Source: Luteolibacter pohnpeiensis
GTDB taxonomy: Bacteria > Verrucomicrobiota > Verrucomicrobiia > Verrucomicrobiales > Akkermansiaceae
Assembly: GCF_016595435.1 (NCBI RefSeq)
Contig: NZ_JAENIJ010000005.1
Location: 124,001-188,000, forward strand
Direction of reading: 5' to 3'
Length of the DNA stretch: 64,000 nucleotides
The notes beneath the pieces were generated by a model, which was not told the DNA's origin, made no database searches, and worked only from the letters and a program-made list of their open reading frames with translations. Made by a program: the position numbers and the translations under genes. Every line of letters begins with the position of its first letter. The first letter of the stretch is position 1. This document shows positions 1-56,150 of this stretch, one piece after another.

Positions 1-483
1 TACTGATTTGGTAATTCGATCGCCAGTATGGATTAAATCGATATTAACAGAATCGCCTGCTTTGTAATTCGCGAGACTATTTGAAAGTTCTTCGGGGGAT
101 CCGATAGCTGTATCAGCTACTTTGAGGATAATATCATATTTGGCAAATCCACTCGTTATGGCTGGAGCACCAGGAACCAAACCATTCACCATCACTCCTT
201 CACCCGTTTTCAAGCCTAGGTGCATGCGGAGCATTTCCGGGACTTCTTTGGTCATAAGGCCTAGAAAGCCACGGGAGTTGCTCGCGCGAGAAGTGGCTTG
301 GGCGGCCGGTGCTATTGGTGCGGTGCTATCTTCTTGGGGGTTCTGGGCTATGGAATTCGAGGATGATCGAACTCTGGATTCCACCGATGGTGGCGGTGGC
401 GCATTGTCAGGTGGGGGTTCAATCGCGAGAGCTGGAATAATACAGGCCAGGCCAATTCCAATATGATAGAGATTTTCTTTCAT
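1..483 (-). CDS. Secreted PDZ-domain protein, partial (C-terminus beyond the window)
   Basis: The frame is open from an ATG at 481-483 down to base 1, giving 161 residues with no stop, so the gene continues outside the window. Residues 1-20 form a short signal peptide ending in ALA. A low-complexity linker rich in Pro, Ser and Ala follows (about 21-70). From about 71 there is a PDZ-like region with GFLGLM, then GEGVMVNGLVPGAPA, then KYDIILKVADTAI, the usual order in bacterial HtrA/DegP-type PDZ domains. No protease domain is visible in the part present. It lies 67 bases after the anti-sigma-like gene on the same strand, so it is probably the third gene of the sigma/anti-sigma unit and may act in the envelope. 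A trypsin-like domain could lie outside the window. Confidence 0.75.
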   Translation of the reverse strand, partial: MKENLYHIGIGLACIIPALAIEPPPDNAPPPPSVESRVRSSSNSIAQNPQEDSTAPIAPAAQATSRASNSRGFLGLMTKEVPEMLRMHLGLKTGEGVMVNGLVPGAPAITSGFAKYDIILKVADTAIGSPEELSNSLANYKAGDSVNIDLIHTGDRITKSV

Positions 484-12146: not shown

Positions 12147-14510
12147 TCAGGCTGGGGCGCCAACAACACCTGGCAGCGGGCCGTCATCGGGACGGTCTTC
12201 CCCGGTTGGTTTGCTCGCAGGCTTTTTGCGAAACTCATCCGGCACCGGTGGTGGAGTTGGTGCGCTTGGTGGATTCCGCATTTCGCCGAACTCGATCAAG
12301 TCCTGCAGATGCTTCGCATCCAGAGTCTCGTATTCGAGCAGGGCATTGGCGATCAGCTCAACCTTGTCGCGATACTTGTTCAGGATTTCTTCCGCTTTCT
12401 GATAAGCCTCGTCGATGAAGCGCTTGATTTCGGAATCGATGATCCGGGCGGTTTCTTCGGAGTAATTGCGGCCACGTGATACATCGCGGGCGAGGAAAAC
12501 CGGGGATTCGCCTTCGCCATATTCGATCATGCCGAGGGCGTCGCTCATGCCCCATTCGCAAACCATGTTCCGCGCTAGGGAGGTGGCTTGGCGGATATCG
12601 CCGGATGCGCCGTTCGACACATCGTCGCTGTGGAAAGCTTCGGCGATGCGTCCACCCATGGTCACGACCAGGTTGGCGAGTGCTTCTTTCTTCTGAGTCG
12701 AATACTTGTCGCCATCTGGAAGATACATCGTGGCACCGAGATACGGACCCCGTGGGATGATGGTGACTTTGTGAAGCGGGTGCGTGTGAGGCAGAACAAT
12801 ATTGAGGAGCGCGTGACCGGCTTCGTGCCAGGCGGTGCCGATCTTTTCCTTATCGGACATGGCAAGCGAGCGGCGCTCACGACCCCAACGGACTTTATCC
12901 CGTGCCTCCTCCATTTCAGCGAGTGTCACGGCGGAGAGTCCTTTGCGGGCGGCAAGCAGGGCGGACTCGTTGATCAGGTTGGCCAGCTCGGCACCGGAGA
13001 ATCCTGGGGTTCCGCGGGCGATTACGGCGAGATCCACACCAGCTGCGAGTTTGATCTTCTTCACGTGAACACGAAGGATTTCTTCGCGGCCGTTCACATC
13101 TGGAAGGGAAACCGTCACTTGGCGGTCGAAACGGCCGGGGCGGAGCAATGCTGGATCGAGAACATCTGGACGGTTGGTGGCGGCGATGATGATCACACCT
13201 TCCTGGGTGTCGAAACCGTCCATCTCCACCAGCAATTGGTTGAGGGTTTGCTCACGTTCATCGTGGCCACCGCCCATGCCGTGTCCGCGGTGACGACCGA
13301 CTGCGTCGATCTCATCGATGAAGATCAGGCAGGGAGCATGTTTTTTGCCTTGCTCGAACATGTCGCGAACCCGCGATGCTCCGACGCCGACGAACATTTC
13401 GACGAAGTCAGAACCAGAGATGGAGAAGAAAGGAACGTCCGCTTCGCCAGCGATCGCGCGGGCCAGCAAGGTTTTGCCGGTTCCCGGGGAGCCAACCATC
13501 AGCACGCCTTTTGGAATCGAGCCGCCGAGTTTCTGGAACTTGCGTGGGTCACGCAGGAAATCGACGATTTCGAACAGTTCTTCTTTCGCTTCCTGAATGC
13601 CGGCGACGTCTTTGAACGTCACCTTGTTGCGATCCATCGTCAGAAGGCGTGCCTTGGATTTTCCAAAGGACATCGCACCGCGGCCAGCGGATTTCATTTG
13701 CTGACGGAACAGGAAGAACAGCAGCAGAATGATCAGAAGGAAGGGCAGGAAGGTAAAGATCGCACCCTTGAGCCAATCGTTGGTGCGGATGTAGCTCGCG
13801 TCCTCCTTGACGAGAAGTTTGCGCAAGTCATCACCAAGAATCGCGATAGATGCGACGACTTGGAATGGTCTTGGACCCACCGCTTTGCCGTCCTCGGTTT
13901 TCTTAGGGACAAGGTTGGTAGGCGCTTGGCGGGTGCCAACGATCAGTGCTTCGGACGAATTCGGAACGAGTAGGATACTCAGCGGATTGTCCGCATTCGT
14001 GGTATCGACTTCACCAGCAGCAACGTATTTGCGGAATTCTGCGAGCGTGAGCTGCTCCAGATCGCTTTCCACTGGAAGTTCAGCTTCAGTGACTTGGCGT
14101 GTGGTGAAATTGTCACCGAGAATGTCGCGCACGGCATCCTGCTGAAGGCTGAGGTTGAACCGGACTTTAAAATCTTTCGGCTCGGTCTTCAATTTACCGC
14201 CTTCAGGGACCATTTCGGGTTGAAGGAAGCCGCTGATGGTGGCGTCTATCGAGCTATCCGAGGTCACCACTTTAAATGGGTAATCCTTCGGGTTTGAGGT
14301 GATCACGAGATCCTGATCCCAATACTTGCGGAATTGCGAGTAGCTCAAATTCTGGGAATTCCCATTGATTTTCGGGCTGAAAACAGCTGCGCCGATCAGA
14401 AGAGCACCTACAGAAAGAAGGACGAGAAGACGCCAATTGAATCCGCCCGTGTCCCCTGGGCCACGGTTCGGGCTGGGAGGCGGCGGCGTTGAATTCGGTT
14501 GTTCGGACAT
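12147..14510 (-). CDS. ftsH: ATP-dependent zinc metalloprotease FtsH
   Basis: A 787-residue membrane AAA protease that degrades misfolded membrane proteins and regulators. The Pro-rich N-terminus is followed by a first membrane helix ([17 protein letters not shown]), a long periplasmic domain and a second helix ([15 protein letters not shown]). The AAA domain carries Walker A GSPGTGKT, where Ser replaces the usual first Pro. It also carries Walker [10 protein letters not shown], and the second region of homology [20 protein letters not shown]. The zinc site is HEAGH. The start [10 protein letters not shown] (ATG 14508-14510) was preferred over an upstream in-frame start that would add 47 non-conserved residues. 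A Pro-rich tail ends the protein. Confidence 0.96.
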
Positions 14511-14581
14511 GATGGACTGGAAATGCCTGCTTAGCGGGAGGGCCTCCGCGACAGCAGGAATGATGGAGGATAAGCGGCACG

Positions 14582-14608
14582 TTGCAAAAGGAAACCCCTT
14601 TTTTGCAA
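14582..14608. promoter_or_regulatory. Inverted repeat in the ftsH / ABC transporter divergent region
   Basis: TTGCAAAAGG (14582-14591) is mirrored by CCTTTTTTGCAA (14597-14608), giving an 8+2 bp inverted repeat in the 233 bases between two divergent genes. It lies 72 bases upstream of the ftsH ATG and about 135 upstream of the transporter GTG. It could be an operator or a short hairpin. No clear -35/-10 pair could be assigned around it. The rest of the gap holds the AGGAGG site of the transporter and nothing else recognised. Confidence 0.3.
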
Positions 14609-14743
14609 TGTTCCCCCAGATCGTTTTACGCGTTTTCCCGAATTTAAGCAATCTCAGGCTGCTTTGTGCAGGGTCTTGCGAGGATTCGCTCCGTCTGCCA
14701 AGGATGCTGCGTGGATTTTCAACCTCAGGAGGAGCAAAGACCG

Positions 14744-17700
14744 GTGCGGAAGCGAAAGTCCCGGAAATGGGATTGGCTGCAATCGTTGCCGGGAATCGGG
14801 CGCCTACGCGCGTTACGTCCTGGGGCGGATGCGCATGTGGGCGCGTTGGTGGATGCGTTTGCGACTTTTGCCACGCTTGATGACGTGCTCACGCCGTTGG
14901 AGGCGGATCTGATCCTGGATATGCTGCGCAGCGCGTTTCCGGAGGTGGACCATGCTTGGCTTGCAGCACGCCTGCAGCGCGCGGTGAAAAATCCACGCCC
15001 CTTGCAAGGGTTGGCAGCGGCCTTGAAGGATTCTTTGGATGATCCGGCCAAGCTCGCGGTCGGCCTGCAATTGTTCACTTTGGTGGATGCGGCTGGAAAA
15101 TCAGAGCGCAGCCGGGCGAGCTTTGAAATTTTCATGCGTCGCCTGGGCCGACCCGACTACGGGATCGCCATTTTGCGTGAAATGCGTGGCGAGGTTGCGG
15201 AAAATGAGGAGCTGCCATTTGAGCGGCTAGTTTTCGGCACCGATCTTTCGTCATCCGATGTGCTGTTGCCACCTGCGGCGCGCAGTCAGGAATTCCGGGT
15301 TTACCGCACTGGCGATCTGGTTCTGGTGAGGAATACCGGTGCTGCTGCCTTGTGGTTGCGCGGCAAGCCCTTGGAGAGCGGTGCGTTTTTGCGAATGCGC
15401 GAGCGTCAACCGTTGGTGGTTCCCGGTTGGACCCTCACTCACGAGGATTTGAATTTTTTCCTGAACGTCAAAAGAACCGGCAACTCACCGTCGATTTATC
15501 TTGAGCAAACGGATGATGCGGTGACGGCGGAAAGAGCCCGTGGACGGAATAGCGCGATCCGCATCCGCTTCGGGTTACAGGCTGAGGTCGAGGCCTTGCG
15601 AGATACAGATTTGACGATAGGAACGCACCGCCAACTCAAAAGAGGCGAGGTGATTCAATGCCTGAACCACGAGCAGTTGGGCGATGACAGCGGGTTCAAT
15701 CTTTCCATCAACGAATTGCGCAGACGTGCTGTCCAATCCGGTCGCCGTTTCAGGCTGGCGCTGGATCGTCAGGAATATCTGGTCTCCAATGATGCCTCGG
15801 CGCTGGCAGCAGGAGATCTTTTGCTGGGCCCCAAAATGGCACCTCGGGTGGTGCTGTTTATTCGGTTCGATCCGCAAAAAGGGAAAGGATTGCTCGAAGT
15901 TCGGGAAAGTGCCGGGCCGGTTTTGGTGAACGGCTTTCCGGTTAGAGGGCAGGTGACATTGCATGATGGTTCATTGATCCGGCTTTCCGGGACACAGGCG
16001 GTGCGATGCCGTTTCAGCGAAGGCTTTTTGGATGAGGAGCGCACCCAGATTGAATCTCTGCAGGTGGAGGATCTGATCCATGATTTCGGCAGCGATTCCC
16101 ACGCGATCGATCACCTCAACTTCAGCGTCAAGCGCGGTGAAATGATGTGCATCATCGGCCCCAGCGGCAGTGGCAAAAGCACGTTGTTGGCGATTCTATC
16201 AGGGCAGCGCGAGCCTTCGCGTGGCCAGGTGAAATTGAATGGTGCCTCGTTGTATGAACACCGCGAGCGGTTGGTTCCATTCATCGCCTACATGCCGCAG
16301 GAAGAGGCGCTCAATCCCCAACTCACGGTGCGGGAACACCTGCGACACGCGGTGACGATCCGGCGTCCGGCATTGACGCCAGCCGAACACGAACGTCGTG
16401 TTGACTCCACCTTGGCAGAGTTGGGGTTGCAGCGGATTGCGCGTCGCCGGGTGGGAGCTCCTGGTGAAAAAACCATCTCCGGTGGTGAACGCAGCCGACT
16501 GAACCTCGGGTTGGAATTGAGCAGTCGGGCCGAAGTTTTCCTGTTCGATGAACCGATCTCCGGACTTTCGTCGAAGGATTCCGAACACGTCGCCGAGACC
16601 CTGCGCTCCTTGGCCCGGGAGAAAATCGTGATCGCTTCCCTGCACCGGCCCGGCGCGCCGGTTCTCAGATTGTTCGATAAGGTGTTGCTGTTGGATAGCG
16701 GCGGAAAGCTTGCTTACTTCGGCGCGCCGGGCGCGATGGTGACCTACTTTCAGGAGGCATGCGAGGAACTGGCCATTTCCCATCCATCGGTGAATTCAAA
16801 AACTCCGCCCGGAGCAGACTTCGTATTCGATGTACTAGAAACCCCGTTGAGCGGGATCGGCGGAGGAGCCAATACCGGCGGTGCCCGACGATTCCCTTCG
16901 TCTTTCTGGCAGGAACGGTTTGAAAGCCTGGCCTTGCTGAAATCCCTGCAACCCGGCGATGTCAGCAGTCGGCTCGGAGATTCCGGCACCGAGGGGCGAC
17001 TGCCTTTACCTCCGAAACCGGTCCGGCGCGTCAAAGCCGTGGTCGCGGTATTCGCAACTCACTTCCTGCGGTCGCTGCTGTCGAAGATTCGCAATCGGGG
17101 AACCATTTACAGCACCTTTCTGGAAGCCCCGATTCTAGCGGCGGTGATTGCGATCACTCTGCGTTCCTCGCCGAAAGGTCCGTATCATTTCTCCACCGCG
17201 CTGCATCTACCGGCGTATTTGTTCCTGAGCGTGACCGTGGCGATGTTCCTTGGTTTGACCAATTCGGCCACCGAGATTCTAAGGGATCGGCCATTGCTCA
17301 GGCGGGAAAGAAATTTTCTGCCCGGAGCTGCTTCGTACATTTTCGCCAAGTTTGTCGCACTCGCATTGGTTTCCGCCGTGCAGAGCTTCATCTACATCGT
17401 CGTCGGGAATCACTTTCTTGAGATTCGCGGCATGCTTTTCGAGCACTGGATCTGGATGACTTTCACGGCGTGGGGAGGGACGGCGATGGCATTGGTGGTT
17501 TCTTCTCTGGTGCGATCGGAGCGCGCAGCACTGACTGCGGTTCCCTTATTGCTGGTTCCTCAGATGTTACTCGCCGGAGCTCTGGTGCCTTACCGGGAAA
17601 TGAATCGCGGCCTGTTTGAAAATGCCGGGATCAATCGCGAAAGAGGCGGATCGCCAGTTCCGGCGAAAATCATGCCTCTGCGGTATGCATACGAGGCGAT

Positions 17701-18259
17701 GGTGGTTGCGCAGGCAACGCGGAATCCATTCGAAGTCGAGCGGATCCGGCTGCAACGCAGAATCGATCGAATCCGCAAGACGACGGGCATCATCGATCCC
17801 GAGCGGGCGGAGAGGTTCGAGCTGTTGAAAGAAGGGCTACGCCGCCTGCTGGCATCGGGAGCGAAGACTCCTGATGAAGCCGCGCAATTGGTTTCCAGAA
17901 TCCGAAAACTGGCTCAATCCGGTAGCAAGGTGGAAGTGGAAACCATGAAGGTCTGGCCGGATGATGACGACGAAAAAGCCAAGCCGACTTCCGAGTTTTT
18001 CGTCAATGAACGGATCGATCTGCTGGTGCGGGAAGCGGAGACATTTCGCAATGACTACCGGAACAAAAAGGCGAGAAACGTCTTCCTTGCACTGAGTAAG
18101 CCGATCCCGTTCGAAAAGGTTGAACCGAATCCCGACTCCCCGGACGATGGATGGTTTGAGACCCAGCGTTACTGCGGAGTGATCTTCCTGCTGCTCATCG
18201 TGGGATGCTGCATTTCTTCCAGTGTGATCATATCCTGGCAGAATCGACGCACTCGATAG
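14744..18259 (+). CDS. ABCG-type fused ABC transporter with TerB-like and FHA-like N-terminal regions
   Basis: About 1171 residues. AGGAGGA at 14727-14733, 10 bases before the GTG at 14744, fixes the start. An upstream in-frame GTG at 14666 lacks such a site. Residues ~35-135 are helical with [19 protein letters not shown] and resemble a TerB fold. Two beta-rich segments follow; the second (about 384-424, [20 protein letters not shown]) looks like an FHA domain. The ATPase has Walker [10 protein letters not shown] (~472), signature ISGGE (~578) and Walker B VFLFDEP (~599). About six membrane helices form the permease (~790-945), interrupted by a long charged segment before a final C-terminal helix. 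The order FHA-ATPase-permease recalls mycobacterial Rv1747, whose activity is controlled by phosphothreonine binding. The substrate is unknown. Confidence 0.82.
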
Positions 18260-18310
18260 GTGAATCGCTGTCAGATGGCGATCATCAGGTTTGGGTGCTC
18301 TCCATCCGTG

Positions 18311-19063
18311 CTAAGCAGGTGGAGAGGCGACTTCTAACAGAGCATGCATGATTTCCTGAACCGAAGACGGGTCCAGGGATTCCTGGACGACTGCGCCGAG
18401 CACCAGACAGCCATAGGGCGTTTCCACAGGGATGACTTCGAGCGTCGCGCTGGAACCGACCTTTACGTGAACATTGCCAGCAGGCGTGCCGGGTCGACGA
18501 GAGGCCAATGCCAGGCTGCGAGCCAGGAAATGCAGTTTGCCGTGTCCGCTTTCGTCGAAAATGACCGATCCTTCGCGGTCGAGAATGAAAATCCCGGTCG
18601 CCGAAAATCGCTCACTGAGCCAGAAGCGGAATTGAATGATTCGCTCCAGAAAGGGCCCGCGGGCATTGCTTTGAGGCGCTCCGGGTTCCAGATCCGAATC
18701 GGTGAATTGAGATGAAACGTCGATGGTCGGCGCAGCTGCAGCGGGGACGTTTTGAAATGCTGTCCTAGGTGGCTCCGGTGCGGGCGGAAGCTGCTCGGGC
18801 GTTGCCTGAGGAGATGGCGCCGCAGGCTCGGCACTTACTGCAGGAGACGTCGGCGGAGCTGGATTCGGAGCTGGATTCGGAGCTTCTGGGGGGCTTTGAG
18901 GCGGTAGGGGGGATGGTGCTGGCTGCTCGGCTTCATAGCCAACGAAGGCCAGGTCGAAGCCAGCATCGGGCTTGGTCATCCGGGGCTGTGCGACTGAAAT
19001 CATCAGCCGCTCTGCCAACCGTCTGACCTCCTCGCGATCCAGCCAAGGATTGATGGGGTCCAT
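18311..19063 (-). CDS. Pro-rich protein with C-terminal roadblock/LC7-like region
   Basis: A 250-residue protein whose ATG directly abuts the TAA of the ParA gene upstream, so the two are surely co-transcribed. Residues 1-48 are helical. Residues ~48-115 are Pro/Ala-rich and partly encoded by a 12-bp tandem repeat. The C-terminal ~120 residues contain GIFILDREGSVIFDESGHG, then a helix of Ala/Leu, then VHVKVGSSATLEVIPVETPYG and a final helix. That alternation of strand-turn-strand-helix resembles roadblock/LC7 domains, small partners of NTPases such as MglA. The fold assignment is an inference from pattern only. Confidence 0.55.
   Translation of the reverse strand: MDPINPWLDREEVRRLAERLMISVAQPRMTKPDAGFDLAFVGYEAEQPAPSPLPPQSPPEAPNPAPNPAPPTSPAVSAEPAAPSPQATPEQLPPAPEPPRTAFQNVPAAAAPTIDVSSQFTDSDLEPGAPQSNARGPFLERIIQFRFWLSERFSATGIFILDREGSVIFDESGHGKLHFLARSLALASRRPGTPAGNVHVKVGSSATLEVIPVETPYGCLVLGAVVQESLDPSSVQEIMHALLEVASPPA
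18855..18884. repeat. 12-bp tandem repeat, 2.5 copies, in the Pro-rich linker
   Basis: GGAGCTGGATTC occurs at 18855-18866 and 18867-18878, followed by GGAGCT. On the coding (minus) strand it encodes a repeated Asn-Pro-Ala-Pro unit. Being a multiple of 3 it can expand or contract without a frameshift. Confidence 0.85.
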
Positions 19064-19852
19064 TTATCCGTTTAAATTGCGGTATCCATCGGAAAGGTCC
19101 AGCTTTCCTTCAATTTCTGCACGGAGTGAATCAAAAACGATCTGAGCACCAGCTCCTTCTTCCAGCACCCCGATGGGCAAGCCGCGTGCGCTGGCGCGGA
19201 CGAAGAGCGAGTCGCGTGGGATTTGGGTTTTTAATACCATTTCCTGCGGGAGAAGCTCGCGGAGTGCCATGGCCGCTTCGCGACTTTCTGCCAGATCATT
19301 CTGCACCATGGTCAGGCAAACTCCTAGCACGGTCAGGTGAGGGTTCATCACGCGGAGTCGATTGAGTCCCTCCAACAGTTTGGGCACGGATCGAATGCCG
19401 AGCGGTTCCGCTTGCTGGGGAACGAGAATCGCATCGCTGGATGCAATGATGTCTCCGGAAACGCCGAACAAACCCGCTGCGGTATCGATCAGGCATAGGT
19501 CGAATCCACGCAGGGCGGCATTTCTCATGAAAGCACGAACGCGGGCGAGGTGGGTTCCCATGCCGCCGCCGGCTTCGTAGTCGCTAGCCTGTCCGCTGGC
19601 AACGAGGGAAAAGGTTTCGAGGCGGGTCGGAACGACCAGGCGATCCAATGGAATTCCGGGATCCGCCAGGAAGTCGTAGAACCCAGTGAGAAGCCGGGAT
19701 TGTCTGGTAAGAGAAAGTCCTACCGAGCCTTGTGGATCGGCATCCACGAGCAAGGTTCTGACGCCTACGCGGGCAAATGCGTGGGCGAGATTGATGGAGA
19801 GGGTAGTCTTACCCACGCCGCCTTTTTGGCTTGAGATCGCAATACTAATCAC
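19064..19852 (-). CDS. ParA/MinD-family ATPase
   Basis: A 262-residue protein with the deviant Walker A motif KGGVGKTT at residues 10-17, switch I DADPQGSVG, and DLCLIDTAAG as the Walker B region. It is full length for chromosomal ParA-like ATPases that position cargo on the nucleoid or at poles. No ParB gene or parS-like site is visible nearby, so plain chromosome segregation is not indicated. The next gene, with zero bases between, encodes a roadblock-like protein. Together they may form an NTPase/partner pair. The divergent neighbour is a lipoprotein gene. Confidence 0.88.
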   Translation of the reverse strand: MISIAISSQKGGVGKTTLSINLAHAFARVGVRTLLVDADPQGSVGLSLTRQSRLLTGFYDFLADPGIPLDRLVVPTRLETFSLVASGQASDYEAGGGMGTHLARVRAFMRNAALRGFDLCLIDTAAGLFGVSGDIIASSDAILVPQQAEPLGIRSVPKLLEGLNRLRVMNPHLTVLGVCLTMVQNDLAESREAAMALRELLPQEMVLKTQIPRDSLFVRASARGLPIGVLEEGAGAQIVFDSLRAEIEGKLDLSDGYRNLNG

Positions 19853-19969
19853 ACTGAGTCGGGAACGCTGGCGAAAGGGTAGCTTCGGCTTGTCACATCG
19901 GAAGTCTTTTCTTTAGATGCAAGTTGTTCCGGAGAACGAAAAACCCCTCGAGCGCCGGATCTAGAAAGC

Positions 19970-22144
19970 ATGAAACTACCTTTCCGCCTCGATTCAGTCT
20001 TCATCAAATTCCTCACCTGCATCGCAGCCTGCTCAGTTCTCGGCGCATGCAAACAAAAACAAGCAGCGGCCAAGTCAGCAACGGCCGTCGAATTACCCGC
20101 TGAACTGCAGCAAAACCTGATCGGCTCTCTTCCCGGGCCGGTCTACCAAAGCCAGCAGAATTCGCCGATTCACTGGCAACCATGGACCGAAGCAACCTTT
20201 GATCTCGCGGCTCGATCCAATCGTTTGTTGATGGTGATGATTGCGATGCCTCAGCAGCCGCATTTCCAGAAAGTTCTGGAAGCACTTTCGGAGGATCCGG
20301 GCATCGTGGAGAAGATCAATCAGAACTACGTGCCGGTGCTCGTCGATGCGGATGCGGCGCGTGAGATGGGTTTGGTATTGATCGATTTCTGGGCGGAATT
20401 GCACCAGCCGGCGAGCATGCCATTCTGTGTTTGGCTCACCAAAGACCGGAATCCGGTGACCTTCCTTGCTCCTAATGGCCAGTCGGCACAAGTGATTCGT
20501 GATCAATTTGGCCAGACCAATTCGGTGATCGAGGAAATGTGGGAGCACGATCAGAATTACGTTTATCAGAATAGTGCGCTGAATTCGGAGCAACGGGCCG
20601 AGCGGATGCTGAAACGTTGGAAGAGTATCGAATACAGCGGCACCCCTGAGGAGGATGCCTTGAAGTCGGTCCGGGCTTTGGTTTCATTGTATGACCCGGT
20701 TTCACGAACACTCGACGATGCCGGCGGGCTTTTCCCGGCCAGTGCCATCGATCTTTTCGCCGGGGTCAGTCTCGGCGTCGGGATTCCTGATTCGACTCGC
20801 AAACCAGCCAAAGAAGCGTTGGAGGAATTGTTGAAAGATCTGCTTCCGAGTCCGATGTTTGACCCGCTGGACGGCGGGATCTTCAGCGGTCGCCAGCGTT
20901 CCTGGATGTTGCCATCGTTTACGAAGGATTGCCAGACCCAGGCAAAATCAGCCATCGCACTCATCCATGCTTATGAGGCGACTGGCAATCAGGGAGCGTT
21001 GGAGAAAGCTCTTGCGGCCATCGCATTTGCCGAAAAATACGACCAAACCCCCGACGGGATGTTTGCATTTGGCATGAGCGCTCCATCCAAAACGGAGGAC
21101 TGGCTTTGGACCGTCGACGATGTCGAAAAAGCACTTCCAGCCCAAGATGCCGCTTGGTGGATCGCCATCACGGGCATGAAAAAACTCGGAAACCTGCCCA
21201 GCGAGATTGATGTGAAACGCCAGTTTTTCCGTTGTAACTCACTTGGCATGCAGGAGTCGTTGGCAAAAACGGCAAAGCGTCTGAAAGTGCCAGTGGAAGA
21301 ATTGCGGGCCAGTTTCGAAAAATCCCGGAAAGTCCTGCTGGATCTGAGAAATGCGCGGGTAGGGGAATCGGTCGATCAAACTCCGCATGCCGGTGCGGTA
21401 TTCCGCATGGTTTCAGCCTATGCGGCAGCCTTTGGCGCGACCGGTGATGAGACTTATCGGAAAAAGGCCATCGAGCTGCTCACAAAAGCAAAGGCTGAGT
21501 TTCAGGATGGTCCGCGCCTGTTGGCGTATCATGCGGATGCTCCGGAATCGGTGAATGGAGCCAGGGCGTTTGTTTACGGCATCGCCATCCAGGCGGCATA
21601 CGATGTGGAAGCCATCACGAACGATGACTCATGGTTGCTGTGGGCGGACGATCTGGTCTCCACGGCGATGGAGCTTTTTGTCACCGACGACTACATCAAG
21701 GAATGTTCCGATCGCGCGGAAATCATGCACGTCGCGGTGGCGGATCAGGCCATGCTGTTCGACGACTCGACCGCCGGTCTGTTTTCATTGGTCGAATGCC
21801 TGGCCGATGCTCAAGGACGGCCGCTGCCTCCCGGATTTTCAAAACACGCGGGCCGGTATCCGCTCAGTGCCATTCAAAATCCGATGCTCTACACCAACGT
21901 CACCCAAGCGACCCTGATTCGCGAATTTGGCCCGGTTGTCGTCCAGTCAGAGGATGCCCCGAAGGAATTACAGCTTGCAGTCGAGCGTTTGCCACTGAGG
22001 GTTATTCCTCGGAAAACGGCGGATTCCAAAGATGAAGTTCCGCCGGGCTCCATCAAAATAGTTTACGCAGATGGAGGCAGCAAGGTTGCAACCACAGCGG
22101 AAGCCGTTAAAGAAGCGGTGCTGCCTAGCACTGCAATTCCTTGA
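19970..22144 (+). CDS. Lipoprotein related to thioredoxin-domain DUF255/COG1331 proteins, lacking the CxxC
   Basis: A 724-residue protein with a lipobox LGAC and lipid-modified Cys27, so probably membrane-anchored. Residues ~60-160 keep the thioredoxin-like lead of COG1331 proteins (NSPIHWQPWTEATFDLA, then a strand). The active-site region normally reading CHWCHVM is MIAMPQQPHFQK (about 90-101), with no cysteines. The remaining ~550 residues are helical repeats with Trp/Gly motifs typical of six-hairpin (alpha/alpha) barrels, as in the C-terminal half of that family. Disulfide chemistry is therefore unlikely, and the function is unknown. It is followed after 38 bases by another secreted-protein gene. 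Confidence 0.68.
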   Translation: MKLPFRLDSVFIKFLTCIAACSVLGACKQKQAAAKSATAVELPAELQQNLIGSLPGPVYQSQQNSPIHWQPWTEATFDLAARSNRLLMVMIAMPQQPHFQKVLEALSEDPGIVEKINQNYVPVLVDADAAREMGLVLIDFWAELHQPASMPFCVWLTKDRNPVTFLAPNGQSAQVIRDQFGQTNSVIEEMWEHDQNYVYQNSALNSEQRAERMLKRWKSIEYSGTPEEDALKSVRALVSLYDPVSRTLDDAGGLFPASAIDLFAGVSLGVGIPDSTRKPAKEALEELLKDLLPSPMFDPLDGGIFSGRQRSWMLPSFTKDCQTQAKSAIALIHAYEATGNQGALEKALAAIAFAEKYDQTPDGMFAFGMSAPSKTEDWLWTVDDVEKALPAQDAAWWIAITGMKKLGNLPSEIDVKRQFFRCNSLGMQESLAKTAKRLKVPVEELRASFEKSRKVLLDLRNARVGESVDQTPHAGAVFRMVSAYAAAFGATGDETYRKKAIELLTKAKAEFQDGPRLLAYHADAPESVNGARAFVYGIAIQAAYDVEAITNDDSWLLWADDLVSTAMELFVTDDYIKECSDRAEIMHVAVADQAMLFDDSTAGLFSLVECLADAQGRPLPPGFSKHAGRYPLSAIQNPMLYTNVTQATLIREFGPVVVQSEDAPKELQLAVERLPLRVIPRKTADSKDEVPPGSIKIVYADGGSKVATTAEAVKEAVLPSTAIP

Positions 22145-25205: not shown

Positions 25206-25901
25206 TCAGCCGAGGATTTCATTCACCCAGGCGGGAACCAATTGGGTTGCCGGGCCGAGACGTGATTCCTGGAATGAATCGCTGGTTTGGCTCGGATCCA
25301 GATTGAGTTCGAGGGTTCTCGCTCCTGCATGGCTGGCCAGTGAAACAAATCCGGCAGCAGGGTAAACATTGCCGGAGGTGCCGATGGAAACGAACCAATC
25401 CGCAGCGCGAAGTGCGGATGAGATTTCCTCCAGATGGAATGGCATCTCACCAAACCAAACGATGTGAGGGCGCAATGTCCCGATGTTTCCACAAGCTTGG
25501 CATTTCGAGCTCGTGGATGTTTCCGCAAGCAATGGGGCCACATTGCCGCAAGTGGTGCAGCGGGATTTCAGCAATTCACCGTGAAGATGGAGTAGATTTT
25601 CTGAGCCTGCGCGCTCGTGTAAATCGTCGATGTTTTGGGTGATCAACAACACATGGGCGGCACTTTCCTTTTCCAAGCGGGCGAGCGCAAGATGAGCGGC
25701 ATTTGGCTGGATGGCTGGATCTAACAGCTTTGCCCGCCGCTGATTGTAGAATCGGTGAACCAACTCGGGGTTAGCTTCGAAGGCTTCTGGCGTTGCCACA
25801 TCCTCGACCCGGTGACCTTCCCAGAGGCCGTCCGGACCGCGGAATACCGGAACTCCGGATTCTGCTGAGATGCCCGCGCCGGTGAGGATGACTATGTTCA
25901 T
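25206..25901 (-). CDS. cobB: NAD-dependent protein deacylase, sirtuin family
   Basis: A 231-residue class III sirtuin that removes acyl groups from lysine using NAD. Motifs are GAGISAESGVPVFRG (residues 8-22), TQNIDDLHERAG, catalytic His in HLHGE, and a zinc ribbon with CTTCG and CQACG. Its ATG overlaps the mnmE stop (ATGA), so the two are translationally coupled. Whether it deacetylates or desuccinylates cannot be told securely. Confidence 0.93.
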   Translation of the reverse strand: MNIVILTGAGISAESGVPVFRGPDGLWEGHRVEDVATPEAFEANPELVHRFYNQRRAKLLDPAIQPNAAHLALARLEKESAAHVLLITQNIDDLHERAGSENLLHLHGELLKSRCTTCGNVAPLLAETSTSSKCQACGNIGTLRPHIVWFGEMPFHLEEISSALRAADWFVSIGTSGNVYPAAGFVSLASHAGARTLELNLDPSQTSDSFQESRLGPATQLVPAWVNEILG

Positions 25902-53630: not shown

Positions 53631-56150
53631 ATGGAACAACCCCGGATCAGAGGACTCACAATCAAGCGCTTTATCGGTTCTGGTGGTTGTGGCAGTGTTT
53701 ATCTGGCGGAGGACGGGAATTCGGTGCCGCTCGCGGTCAAGGAATTGAGCTCAATGTCGATCAACCGCGCGTTGCTGAAGCGGGCGACAGATCGCTTGGC
53801 TGATGGGGGATGGCCGGATGGGGTGATGCAGGTCAACGATTCGGATTTTCAAGGCAGTCCGTGTTTCATGGTGACGGCATGGCATGGGGTGGAGGGCGAC
53901 GTCCCGTTCAACTTGCAACAGCAGCTTGAAGATTATCCTGGTGAGAATTCGTGGCCCTTGGTTCGAGGAATTTCGAAAGCACTTTGCGCGATGCACTCCA
54001 AGCGGGTGGCGCACGGAAACCTCAAGCCGGGAAATGTCTTTTTTGATGGCGCTCGCAACGTGTTGCTGACGGATTGGGCGCTTGGCAATATGCCGGGAGC
54101 GGTGCATTTGGAGTTTACGGATGCGTTGCTCTATCAACCGCCAGAGCAACTCCGGCATGCGGATGGATATTTGCAGGAAGCCGGATATCGCTGGGATGTT
54201 TTCGCGTTCGGAACTCTGGCGTATCGGGTTTTAACGGGCGAGTTTCCACGCTGTAATGAAATTTTTCAAAGGGTTGCCCCAGGGCCGGGCGAGGTTCGGA
54301 AGCCGGGGATCAATGCGGATTTGCCGAAGATTGCGAGGAACCTGGAAAGCCACCCGGAGGTGACCTGGCCCCATCCTCCGGCGAATGATTTGGAAGCCGG
54401 ATACCGTGAGTGGATTGATCGCTGCCTTTCGCTGGATCCCGCAAATCGTCCGTCCTCAATGATCGAGTTGGAAGCTGGATTTGAGGCGGTGGACACCCGG
54501 ATCACTGCCGAGGAGGAACGGGCATCGCTGCTGGATCATCGTCGGCGCTCCGAGCATCGAACATCGAGAGCCTATTTTATCGCGGCGATGATGGCGGTGG
54601 TTGCATTGATCTTTGGTGCGCTCTGGCATCTGAAGGAATCGCAGATCCAGCGCAAAAAGTTGCAGACGGATGCAGAGATCTCGAAGTTGACCCAAGAGCG
54701 GGATGAAGCGGTTGTCGCGCGGACCCAAGCGCTTCGTGACGAGAGCGAGGCAGCCGAAAAATTGAATTATCAAAAAAATCTCGGACTCGCGCGATTGGAA
54801 GCATCCCGTTTAATCGGAGACCGGCTCTTTTCGTGGGCCATGGAAAAAGGCTATCGGCGTCTGCCGCCCTTGGATGGCCGCGAGTTACGGCTCAAACAAT
54901 TGGAGAAGTATTTCGAAGACTTTATTGCAAGGACAGCAGATGTCAGTGATTTGGAGGATGAGCGCAGGCGGGTGAAATTGCAGCTCGCCGAGGTATCGAT
55001 CGCTGAGGGTGATGTGGAAAAATCGATCGTCAATCTGGAGAAAGCCGTTGGAGCTTACGAAAAGATGCCTAGAGAGCCGGAACACAGCCTGCGGCTTGGC
55101 AGGGACCGGTTATTGTTGGCCTTGCTGCTGCAATCCGCGCGGGATGCGCGGGCGGGCGATGCGTTTGTGAAAGCAAGGTCCGCCTTGGACGCGGTGCCTG
55201 CTACCGATGTCGACGCGGACAATTTGGATCAGATGAAAGCCATTCTGGACTTTCACGAAGCCAAGTTGCTTTCCGCAGATCATGAAGATCCCAAGGCATT
55301 GGAGCAGCTGATGCGTGCCACGCAAACCTTGAACCGATTGGCGGACGAGCGGCCGGATGCGGCGGTTCTGCGTTCAGAGCTTGCCGTCTGCTACCTGTCC
55401 TCCGCAACCATTCTGGACGGCATGGGCAATCTGGGGGATGCCCGGGAAGTGCGGATTCTCGCTGCGGCGGAGTACCAGAAACTCCTCAAAAACAATCCGG
55501 ACGATCCCGGACTGCGATTTGAACTCGCCGGGTGTTACGCCGCCATGGCGGATTCCGCGCTGCTCTCCGGTGATACCGGAGCGGCCGATGTGCAGTCGAA
55601 GCGAGCGATGGATATTTTGGAAAAATTGGTCAGCGAGCAGCCTGACAATGTGAAAGCGATTTCACGGCTCGGCGTGCAAATTGGCCTTCGTGCCGGGCTT
55701 TTGCGCGATCGCGGACAGGCAGTTGCCGCGCTTGCCTCATTTGAAGAGGGCATTCGTTTGTTAGAAGGTGTTAGGGCCTCAGATCCGGATAACGCCACGG
55801 CCGCCTACCACCTGGCTTTGTTGTGGTGGCAGAAGGGAAGAATGCTCGGAATCGAGGGCGATGTGGATCACGAAATTGAACTGATCACGGTTGCCAATTC
55901 CTTGCTGGAAAAATTGGAGGGCAATATCAAACCAGACGGGCCGCCGATTGAGCGCATCCAGCGGTCACGGGCTTATTTGTTAGGAGACCTGGGCCATGCC
56001 CAGCAACTGGACCGGAAAACCACCGAGGCCAAGGCAAGTTTCAGCGAGTCTGGTGTCCTTTGGGCAGCTCTGCTGACCTACCAGCCGCAGAGTGAGGAAT
56101 ATCAGGAAGGCGCGAACTGGTGCCGCCAGCGCATCAAGGAGCTGGAGTAA
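53631..56150 (+). CDS. Membrane Ser/Thr kinase-like protein, probable pseudokinase, with helical-repeat tail
   Basis: An 839-residue protein. The kinase domain is ~8-290, with glycine loop GSGGCGSVY, AVKEL (Lys37) and PPEQ for APE. The catalytic HRDxKxxN reads HGNLKPGN (His128-Gly129-Asn130; Lys132; Asn135) and DFG reads DWA (Asp148). So the Asp base is Asn. A membrane helix at about 321-341 (SRAYFIAAMMAVVALIFGAL) is followed by a coiled coil, then a long helical region rich in Ala/Leu with TPR-like pairs (about 400-839). The start ATG at 53631 was used; a TTG at 53595 also fits. Kinases of this sort with TPR tails are common in Verrucomicrobia and Planctomycetes. It may be a sensor or scaffold rather than an enzyme. 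Confidence 0.8.
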   Translation: MEQPRIRGLTIKRFIGSGGCGSVYLAEDGNSVPLAVKELSSMSINRALLKRATDRLADGGWPDGVMQVNDSDFQGSPCFMVTAWHGVEGDVPFNLQQQLEDYPGENSWPLVRGISKALCAMHSKRVAHGNLKPGNVFFDGARNVLLTDWALGNMPGAVHLEFTDALLYQPPEQLRHADGYLQEAGYRWDVFAFGTLAYRVLTGEFPRCNEIFQRVAPGPGEVRKPGINADLPKIARNLESHPEVTWPHPPANDLEAGYREWIDRCLSLDPANRPSSMIELEAGFEAVDTRITAEEERASLLDHRRRSEHRTSRAYFIAAMMAVVALIFGALWHLKESQIQRKKLQTDAEISKLTQERDEAVVARTQALRDESEAAEKLNYQKNLGLARLEASRLIGDRLFSWAMEKGYRRLPPLDGRELRLKQLEKYFEDFIARTADVSDLEDERRRVKLQLAEVSIAEGDVEKSIVNLEKAVGAYEKMPREPEHSLRLGRDRLLLALLLQSARDARAGDAFVKARSALDAVPATDVDADNLDQMKAILDFHEAKLLSADHEDPKALEQLMRATQTLNRLADERPDAAVLRSELAVCYLSSATILDGMGNLGDAREVRILAAAEYQKLLKNNPDDPGLRFELAGCYAAMADSALLSGDTGAADVQSKRAMDILEKLVSEQPDNVKAISRLGVQIGLRAGLLRDRGQAVAALASFEEGIRLLEGVRASDPDNATAAYHLALLWWQKGRMLGIEGDVDHEIELITVANSLLEKLEGNIKPDGPPIERIQRSRAYLLGDLGHAQQLDRKTTEAKASFSESGVLWAALLTYQPQSEEYQEGANWCRQRIKELE

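Follow-up and report, generated by a model that had tools for sequence, protein, structure and literature searches.

A transporter of 1171 residues encoded by Luteolibacter pohnpeiensis joins, in one polypeptide, an ABC ATPase and an ABC-2 permease to a front end that likely begins with a TerB-like region and holds two FHA-like regions, and the residue set of the canonical FHA phosphothreonine pocket is absent from these regions throughout the 32 family members that we aligned. The gene lies in a 64,000-nucleotide stretch of contig NZ_JAENIJ010000005.1, hereafter the window. We put at about even the chance that the protein is an Rv1747- or ABCG-like envelope exporter of the inner membrane with a phosphothreonine-independent docking front, and it probably represents a variation on a regulated exporter already known, and not a machine of a new type. 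The domain layout, the core ATPase motifs, the absence of the canonical phosphothreonine pocket and the conservation across the family are directly supported by the observations below. The transporter is common to most sampled members of the family (Akkermansiaceae), where a widely kept exporter would bear on envelope biology, and it is well suited to the question of which role FHA folds borne on a membrane pump play once canonical phosphothreonine reading is gone.

Gene structure and domain layout

The 1171-residue protein is real, and is read from a GTG at 14744 that has AGGAGG about 10 bases upstream. An alternative, longer reading would begin at an in-frame GTG at 14666; matches to 11 relatives covered through the C-terminus start within residues 1-15 as numbered from 14744. 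Both the ATPase and the permease, which the sequence-only reading had assigned to a single polypeptide, are over the Pfam cut-offs (ABC_tran, PF00005, E 1.1e-30, residues 456-605; ABC2_membrane, PF01061, E 2.1e-19). The L. pohnpeiensis genome holds one full-length copy, and the second-best place in it is a 583-residue frame without the front end, which shares 34% identity in the ATPase and 30% across residues 826-950. Scans of 14500-20100 gave nothing above chance, either for promoters (0 promoter-like sites against 1.5 expected) or for terminators (10 terminator-like sites against 7.2 expected). Family counts refer to an alignment of 32 rows, made up of the window protein and 31 of 34 loci, from which the partial loci L049, L051 and L052 were dropped. 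Features of the transporter and of its neighbours are collected in Table 1.

Table 1. Coordinates of the transporter gene, its regions and the adjoining genes, in positions of the window.
Feature	Residues	Position	Strand	Basis
FtsH, divergent upstream neighbour		12147..14651	-	PF01434 E 9e-65, PF00004 E 2e-45
Whole transporter gene (TerB-like, FHA-like, beta region, FHA-like, ABC ATPase, ABC-2 permease)	1171 aa	14744..18259	+	single open frame
TerB-like helical region (likely)	26-150	14819..15193	+	sub-cut-off Pfam, hhalign, fold match
FHA-like region 1	159-241	15218..15466	+	hhalign, VIA-align
Beta-rich middle region	250-335	15491..15748	+	AlphaFold2 strands
FHA-like region 2	341-429	15764..16030	+	VIA-align, hhalign
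ABC ATPase	about 438-672	16055..16759	+	Pfam, motif counts in 32 rows
ABC-2 permease core	774-957	17063..17614	+	PF01061, hydrophobic segments
Long stretch between fifth and sixth predicted spans	958-1144	17615..18175	+	32 aligned rows
Last predicted membrane span	1145-1163	18176..18232	+	hydropathy
250-aa protein, Pro/Ala-rich middle and conserved C-terminal domain	250 aa	18311..19063	-	directly after ParA gene
ParA-type ATPase		19064..19852	-	PF13614 E 5.3e-22; abuts 250-aa gene
Protein with thioredoxin-type DUF255 domain	724 aa	19970-22144	+	PF03190 E 1.4e-15

The front end

In Pfam searches at E up to 10, the first 440 residues of the window protein match neither TerB nor FHA. Across the family, PF05099 (TerB) matches 9 of 32 rows at this threshold, with a best E of 6.1e-5 at 23.7 bits and no row over the curated cut-off of 24.4 bits; PF00498 (FHA) matches two rows, with a best E of 0.015 at 16.1 bits and again none over its cut-off of 20.7 bits. 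Profile-profile comparison with hhalign was more informative for FHA than for TerB. The TerB-like region aligned with a TerB profile over 98 of 119 columns with a score of 24.3, at a probability of only 16.7%, and the maximum over 20 column-shuffled runs was 14.6. That profile was made from 12 of 25 loci found by Pfam in related genomes, leaving out partial matches, two loci that were cut (L091 and L099) and two that scored low (L101 and L102). FHA-like region 1 aligned with a profile of 26 FHA domains (26 of 30 loci, the partial L122, L132 and L136 and the cut L129 being dropped) over 68 of 72 columns, with a score of 30.7 and a probability of 81% (shuffled maximum 12.8 over 20 runs). Region 2 reached a score of 31.9 and a probability of 83% (shuffled maximum 15.5 over 20 runs), but over only 28 C-terminal columns. 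Front regions set against the wrong profile scored at most 14.4, and the beta-rich middle region matched neither of the two profiles (scores 10.2 and 8.8).

Fold comparison used an AlphaFold2 model of the front end built from 12 sequences (mean pLDDT 75.8, pTM 0.66). Foldseek returned no match for residues 1-440 at E 0.001 or below, with single FHA domains at E 0.018 and above; its top row, the kinesin-3 KLP-6 (E 3.9e-3), was rejected at a probability of 0.33 and an rmsd of 22.7. A second look, with VIA-align, told the domains of the front end apart. PG1108 (2h5n), which we take to be a TerB-like structure, was placed on the helical front with 120 residues aligned at an rmsd of 3.7 (model range 26..195) and a Z of 10.9, a value that for helical bundles is not conclusive and can reflect a common arrangement; no TerB-named chain was among the best 50 matches listed. 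Many FHA chains were placed on region 1, with Z up to 9.0, and on region 2, with Z up to 9.7. Among these matches was FHA-2 of mycobacterial Rv1747 (6cah; Z 8.3, rmsd 2.6, 74 aligned, model range 161..324). Searched against the PDB, a profile built from all 32 front ends gave six rows, with E between 0.14 and 1.5; the mycobacterial FHA protein TB39.8 accounted for two of these (E 1.4, profile positions 388-425).

The sequence-only reading had proposed a TerB-like N-terminus followed by one FHA-like beta region, to be checked by AlphaFold or profile comparison against PF05099 and PF00498. Both readings find support in that comparison, and the FHA reading is the better supported, since profile-profile and fold comparison back both and FHA more strongly. 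Model-based comparison makes an FHA beta-sandwich fold well supported in two regions, where one had been claimed. The TerB assignment is likely and lies below the Pfam cut-off; it draws on the nine family rows, the hhalign alignment and the 2h5n fold match, and is set against the lack of a Pfam match in the window protein. Elsewhere in the genus, a TerB domain occurs in a long frame that immediately precedes a gene which, by reading, is ATPase-like (L088, 1-3322); this looks like a defence or stress locus outside the ABC transporter family.

The phosphothreonine pocket

A study of Rv1747 gives Gly32, Arg33, Ser47, His50 and Asn69 as the phosphothreonine residues of its FHA I domain (PMC5549992). 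At the corresponding positions of FHA-like region 1, the Gly-Arg pair occurs in one of 32 rows, Ser in five, His in seven and Asn in two, and in no row do all five occur together. For region 2, neither Arg nor Asn stands at the matching place in any of the 32 rows, the Arg position being our own reading in a profile alignment that spans only the C-terminal 28 columns. A loose version of the pocket pattern is present in 25 of 26 Pfam-detected FHA domains from the same bacterial family versus 0 of 32 transporter rows, although the former figure is a biased yardstick, as the Pfam model that picked those domains itself favours the pattern. Given this absence from all the transporters and presence in nearly all Pfam-level FHA domains, canonical phospho-control of the Rv1747 kind is unlikely. 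The analogy with Rv1747 drawn from the sequence therefore stands for the layout, whereas the Ser/Thr-phosphorylation control that it implied is weakened.

At the Pfam level, the host genome has 16 matches to protein kinases and a single FHA match. Kinases thus exist in the host, yet the front end does not resemble a usual phosphothreonine reader; with 16 such matches in the genome, phospho-control might still target the transporter itself or use a non-canonical site. The weakest of the 16 (E 6.6e-15, over the cut-off) lies in the window at 53661-54458 (+), in an 859-residue frame about 35 kb from the transporter.

ATPase and permease

The core motifs of the ATPase are kept throughout the family. 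Walker A reads GKST in 31 rows and GKSS in one, the Walker B DEP and the H-loop His are present in 32 of 32, and the signature motif is SGGER in 27 rows and SDGER in five. The Q-loop Gln is found in 27 rows and is replaced by Arg in four and His in one, and the D-loop reads SGLSS (31 rows) or SGLST (one row); ABC ATPases usually have an Asp where SGLSS has its Ser. The D-loop Ser, together with the replaced Q-loop Gln in five of 32 rows, suggests that the ATPase cycle may differ from the usual one.

Searches of NCBIfam and of PDB sequences place the protein near ABCG and pleiotropic-drug-type exporters. Its best-scoring PDB relatives are ABCG8 (E 2.9e-35), CDR1, ABCG5 and other ABCG-type exporters, and the best NCBIfam row, below the cut-off, is the pigment precursor permease TIGR00955 over residues 461-947. 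The last two predicted spans are separated by 175-231 residues in the 32 aligned rows, and conserved VN, AE and DYR positions lie in this stretch. The model of the C-terminal part (residues 745-1171, 12 sequences) was poor, with a mean pLDDT of 52.

Distribution and gene neighbourhood

Of 178 genomes of the family (completeness 90 or more), 161, belonging to 8 of 14 genera, have an orthologue of the front end at E 1e-15; in a sample of the phylum, the count at E 1e-4 is 40 of 288 genomes. The front ends of the 31 other aligned rows are 25-75% identical to that of the window. A plasmid-borne relative from Parabacteroides distasonis (WP_005856192.1; L082) is among the matches listed from 5000 plasmid records, which give no measure of spread, and a plasmid of the cyanobacterium Brasilonema encodes a protein of similar layout (QDL19157.1; L083). 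The earlier reading knew of no described TerB-like N-terminus on such a layout, and in the open-licence papers searched we likewise found no transporter that combines TerB, FHA and ABC domains.

Seven frames were scanned between 10.9 and 23.3 kb, namely an S41 peptidase, FtsH, the transporter, the 250-aa protein, ParA, the DUF255 protein and a 355-aa protein; none is a kinase. Of the 34 family loci, many of them short, 10 showed an open frame for FtsH and five showed both ParA and the 250-aa gene; the DUF255 gene is also present in the five loci with ParA. In a single-contig genome of genus g2 (2,664,102 bases; L060, G113 C1), the distance from FtsH to the transporter is about 11 kb, and the FtsH neighbourhood may thus be ancestral. 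Elsewhere in the window, a frame at 25206-25901 (-), Sir2-like by reading of its sequence, has within its 3' end a tRNA-Ser (gga) gene of the other strand, at 25234-25311 (+).

The ParA-type neighbour was correctly recognized from the sequence (Table 1), and its gene probably forms an operon with the 250-aa gene (18311-19852, -). The label 'roadblock-like' for the 250-aa protein was not confirmed: six rows gave no match to PF03259, a PDB search with its profile yielded nothing but non-roadblock entries, among them myosin light chain 3 (E 0.0028), and hhalign against eight roadblock members (8 of 10 loci) aligned 20 columns with a score of 17.8, where shuffled runs reached 13.8 and the FHA cross-control 15.1.

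A ParA match at E 1e-60 was found in 114 of 178 family genomes. Placement relative to the transporter took in 104 of the 161 transporter genomes, leaving out the 56 genomes of g2, which have no ParA match, and G464, which does carry the transporter and is not one of the ParA-only genomes given below. Of 101 placeable genomes, 45 have ParA adjoining the transporter, always convergently and never co-directionally, so that the two share no transcript; in the other 56, ParA was not seen adjacent, being on a different contig in 50, where the breaks of mostly draft genomes can hide adjacency, and apart on one contig in six. By genus, adjacency was seen in 19 of 49 genomes of the host genus (g1), 13 of 16 of g3 and all 13 of g169, whose front ends are only 33-36% identical to that of the window, and in none of the genomes of g5 (0/8), g170 (0/8), g171 (0/6) and g172 (0/1). 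The adjacency, for which a genome search had been suggested, is therefore old, reaching across three genera, but not universal. Conversely, 59 of the 161 transporter genomes (all 56 of g2 and three others) lack a ParA match at E 1e-60, and 12 genomes of g4, g174, g168 and g170 have ParA without the transporter. Since the two so often occur apart, the proposal of a shared export system with polar positioning is not borne out.

Proposed mechanism and alternatives

From its family, we infer that two copies would pair into a pump, each polypeptide supplying an ATPase and a permease with some six predicted spans, and that this pump would work in the export direction. The cytoplasmic front, with its TerB-like, FHA-like, beta and FHA-like regions in series, would most likely serve as a scaffold for docking and gating, to which a partner protein binds with no need for phosphothreonine, and docking of the partner may couple pumping to the state of the envelope or to membrane stress. 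The substrate would probably be an envelope lipid or glycolipid, judging only from Rv1747 and the ABCG relatives. A bolder form of this proposal is a class of exporters conserved in the phylum, in which the TerB-like region and two phosphothreonine-blind FHA folds would form a phosphorylation-independent gate, sense the membrane or envelope state and drive an ABCG-type pump whose last span is preceded by a large additional stretch; relatives in the Bacteroidota would then be a shorter branch of this class; we hold this only tentatively and consider it rather doubtful.

Could the protein instead be switched by phosphorylation in the manner of Rv1747, its FHA-like domains recognizing phosphothreonines of a partner or of a linker? 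The order FHA, FHA, ABC, permease is that of Rv1747 and of the cyanobacterial protein, the host genome has its 16 Pkinase matches, and FHA-2 of Rv1747 is among the fold matches at Z 8.3. We nonetheless regard this as unlikely, as not one of the 32 rows has the pocket set and none of the seven neighbouring frames is a kinase, unlike the situation beside the cyanobacterial gene and in Rv1747, which forms an operon with pknF (PMC3908365). Nor is it probable that the protein only has the shape of a transporter and is an ABC-driven transmitter of force, acting through the long stretch between its last two spans. The length of that stretch in all 32 rows, its conserved VN, AE and DYR positions and the altered D-loop would suit such a role; the permease, however, is ABC-2- and ABCG-like, and the shape of the stretch cannot be read from the poor C-terminal model.

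The neighbouring genes suggest a further alternative, that the transporter forms one system with ParA and the 250-aa protein, which would position it in the cell. Convergent adjacency in 45 of 101 placeable genomes, in g1, g3 and the distant g169, speaks for this. Against it are the 56 placeable genomes in which adjacency was not seen, the lack of any co-directional pair, the g2 transporter genomes, all 56 of them without a ParA match, and the 12 genomes with ParA alone, and we find the idea quite improbable.

Comparison with known systems

Eukaryotic ABCG half-transporters have the order ATPase, then permease, and resemble the window protein in the ATPase, as the match to ABCG8 indicates; we know of none with a cytoplasmic TerB/FHA front. 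The Parabacteroides relative is 32% identical over residues 443-996, shares the SGLSS D-loop and has, by reading, a long stretch before its last hydrophobic segment. It differs in its length of 973 residues and in a front end of about 240 residues without a Pfam match. This front end matched the TerB profile weakly (score 18.1, 110 columns, probability 2.6%) and the profile of the 32 front ends over 49 columns at a probability of 0.8%, and its PDB search gave three rows at E 0.24 and above, PG1108 not among them. The Brasilonema protein, of 895 residues, likewise has two FHA stretches, an ABC domain and an ABC-2 permease, but its FHA match is far over the cut-off (E 3.2e-42), a Ser/Thr kinase gene adjoins it, and TerB gave no match to it even when E values up to 1 were allowed.

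Rv1747 has the layout FHA-FHA-ABC-permease, and the window protein has its FHA-like, FHA-like, ABC and ABC-2 permease regions in the same order in one chain, whereas the TerB-like front and the beta region between the FHA-like domains occur only in the window protein. Rv1747 is an ABC protein with two FHA domains (PMC5549992) that forms an operon with pknF (PMC3908365); by contrast, the phosphothreonine residues listed for its FHA I (PMC5549992) are absent in the window protein, and none of the seven frames scanned around the transporter gene is a kinase. A parallel for the front end is offered by EssC, which is a type VII secretion ATPase and no ABC protein. EssC carries an N-terminal pair of FHA domains from which the phosphothreonine-binding residues are absent (PMC4925161), and it thus provides a precedent for a membrane ATPase whose paired FHA folds lack those residues.
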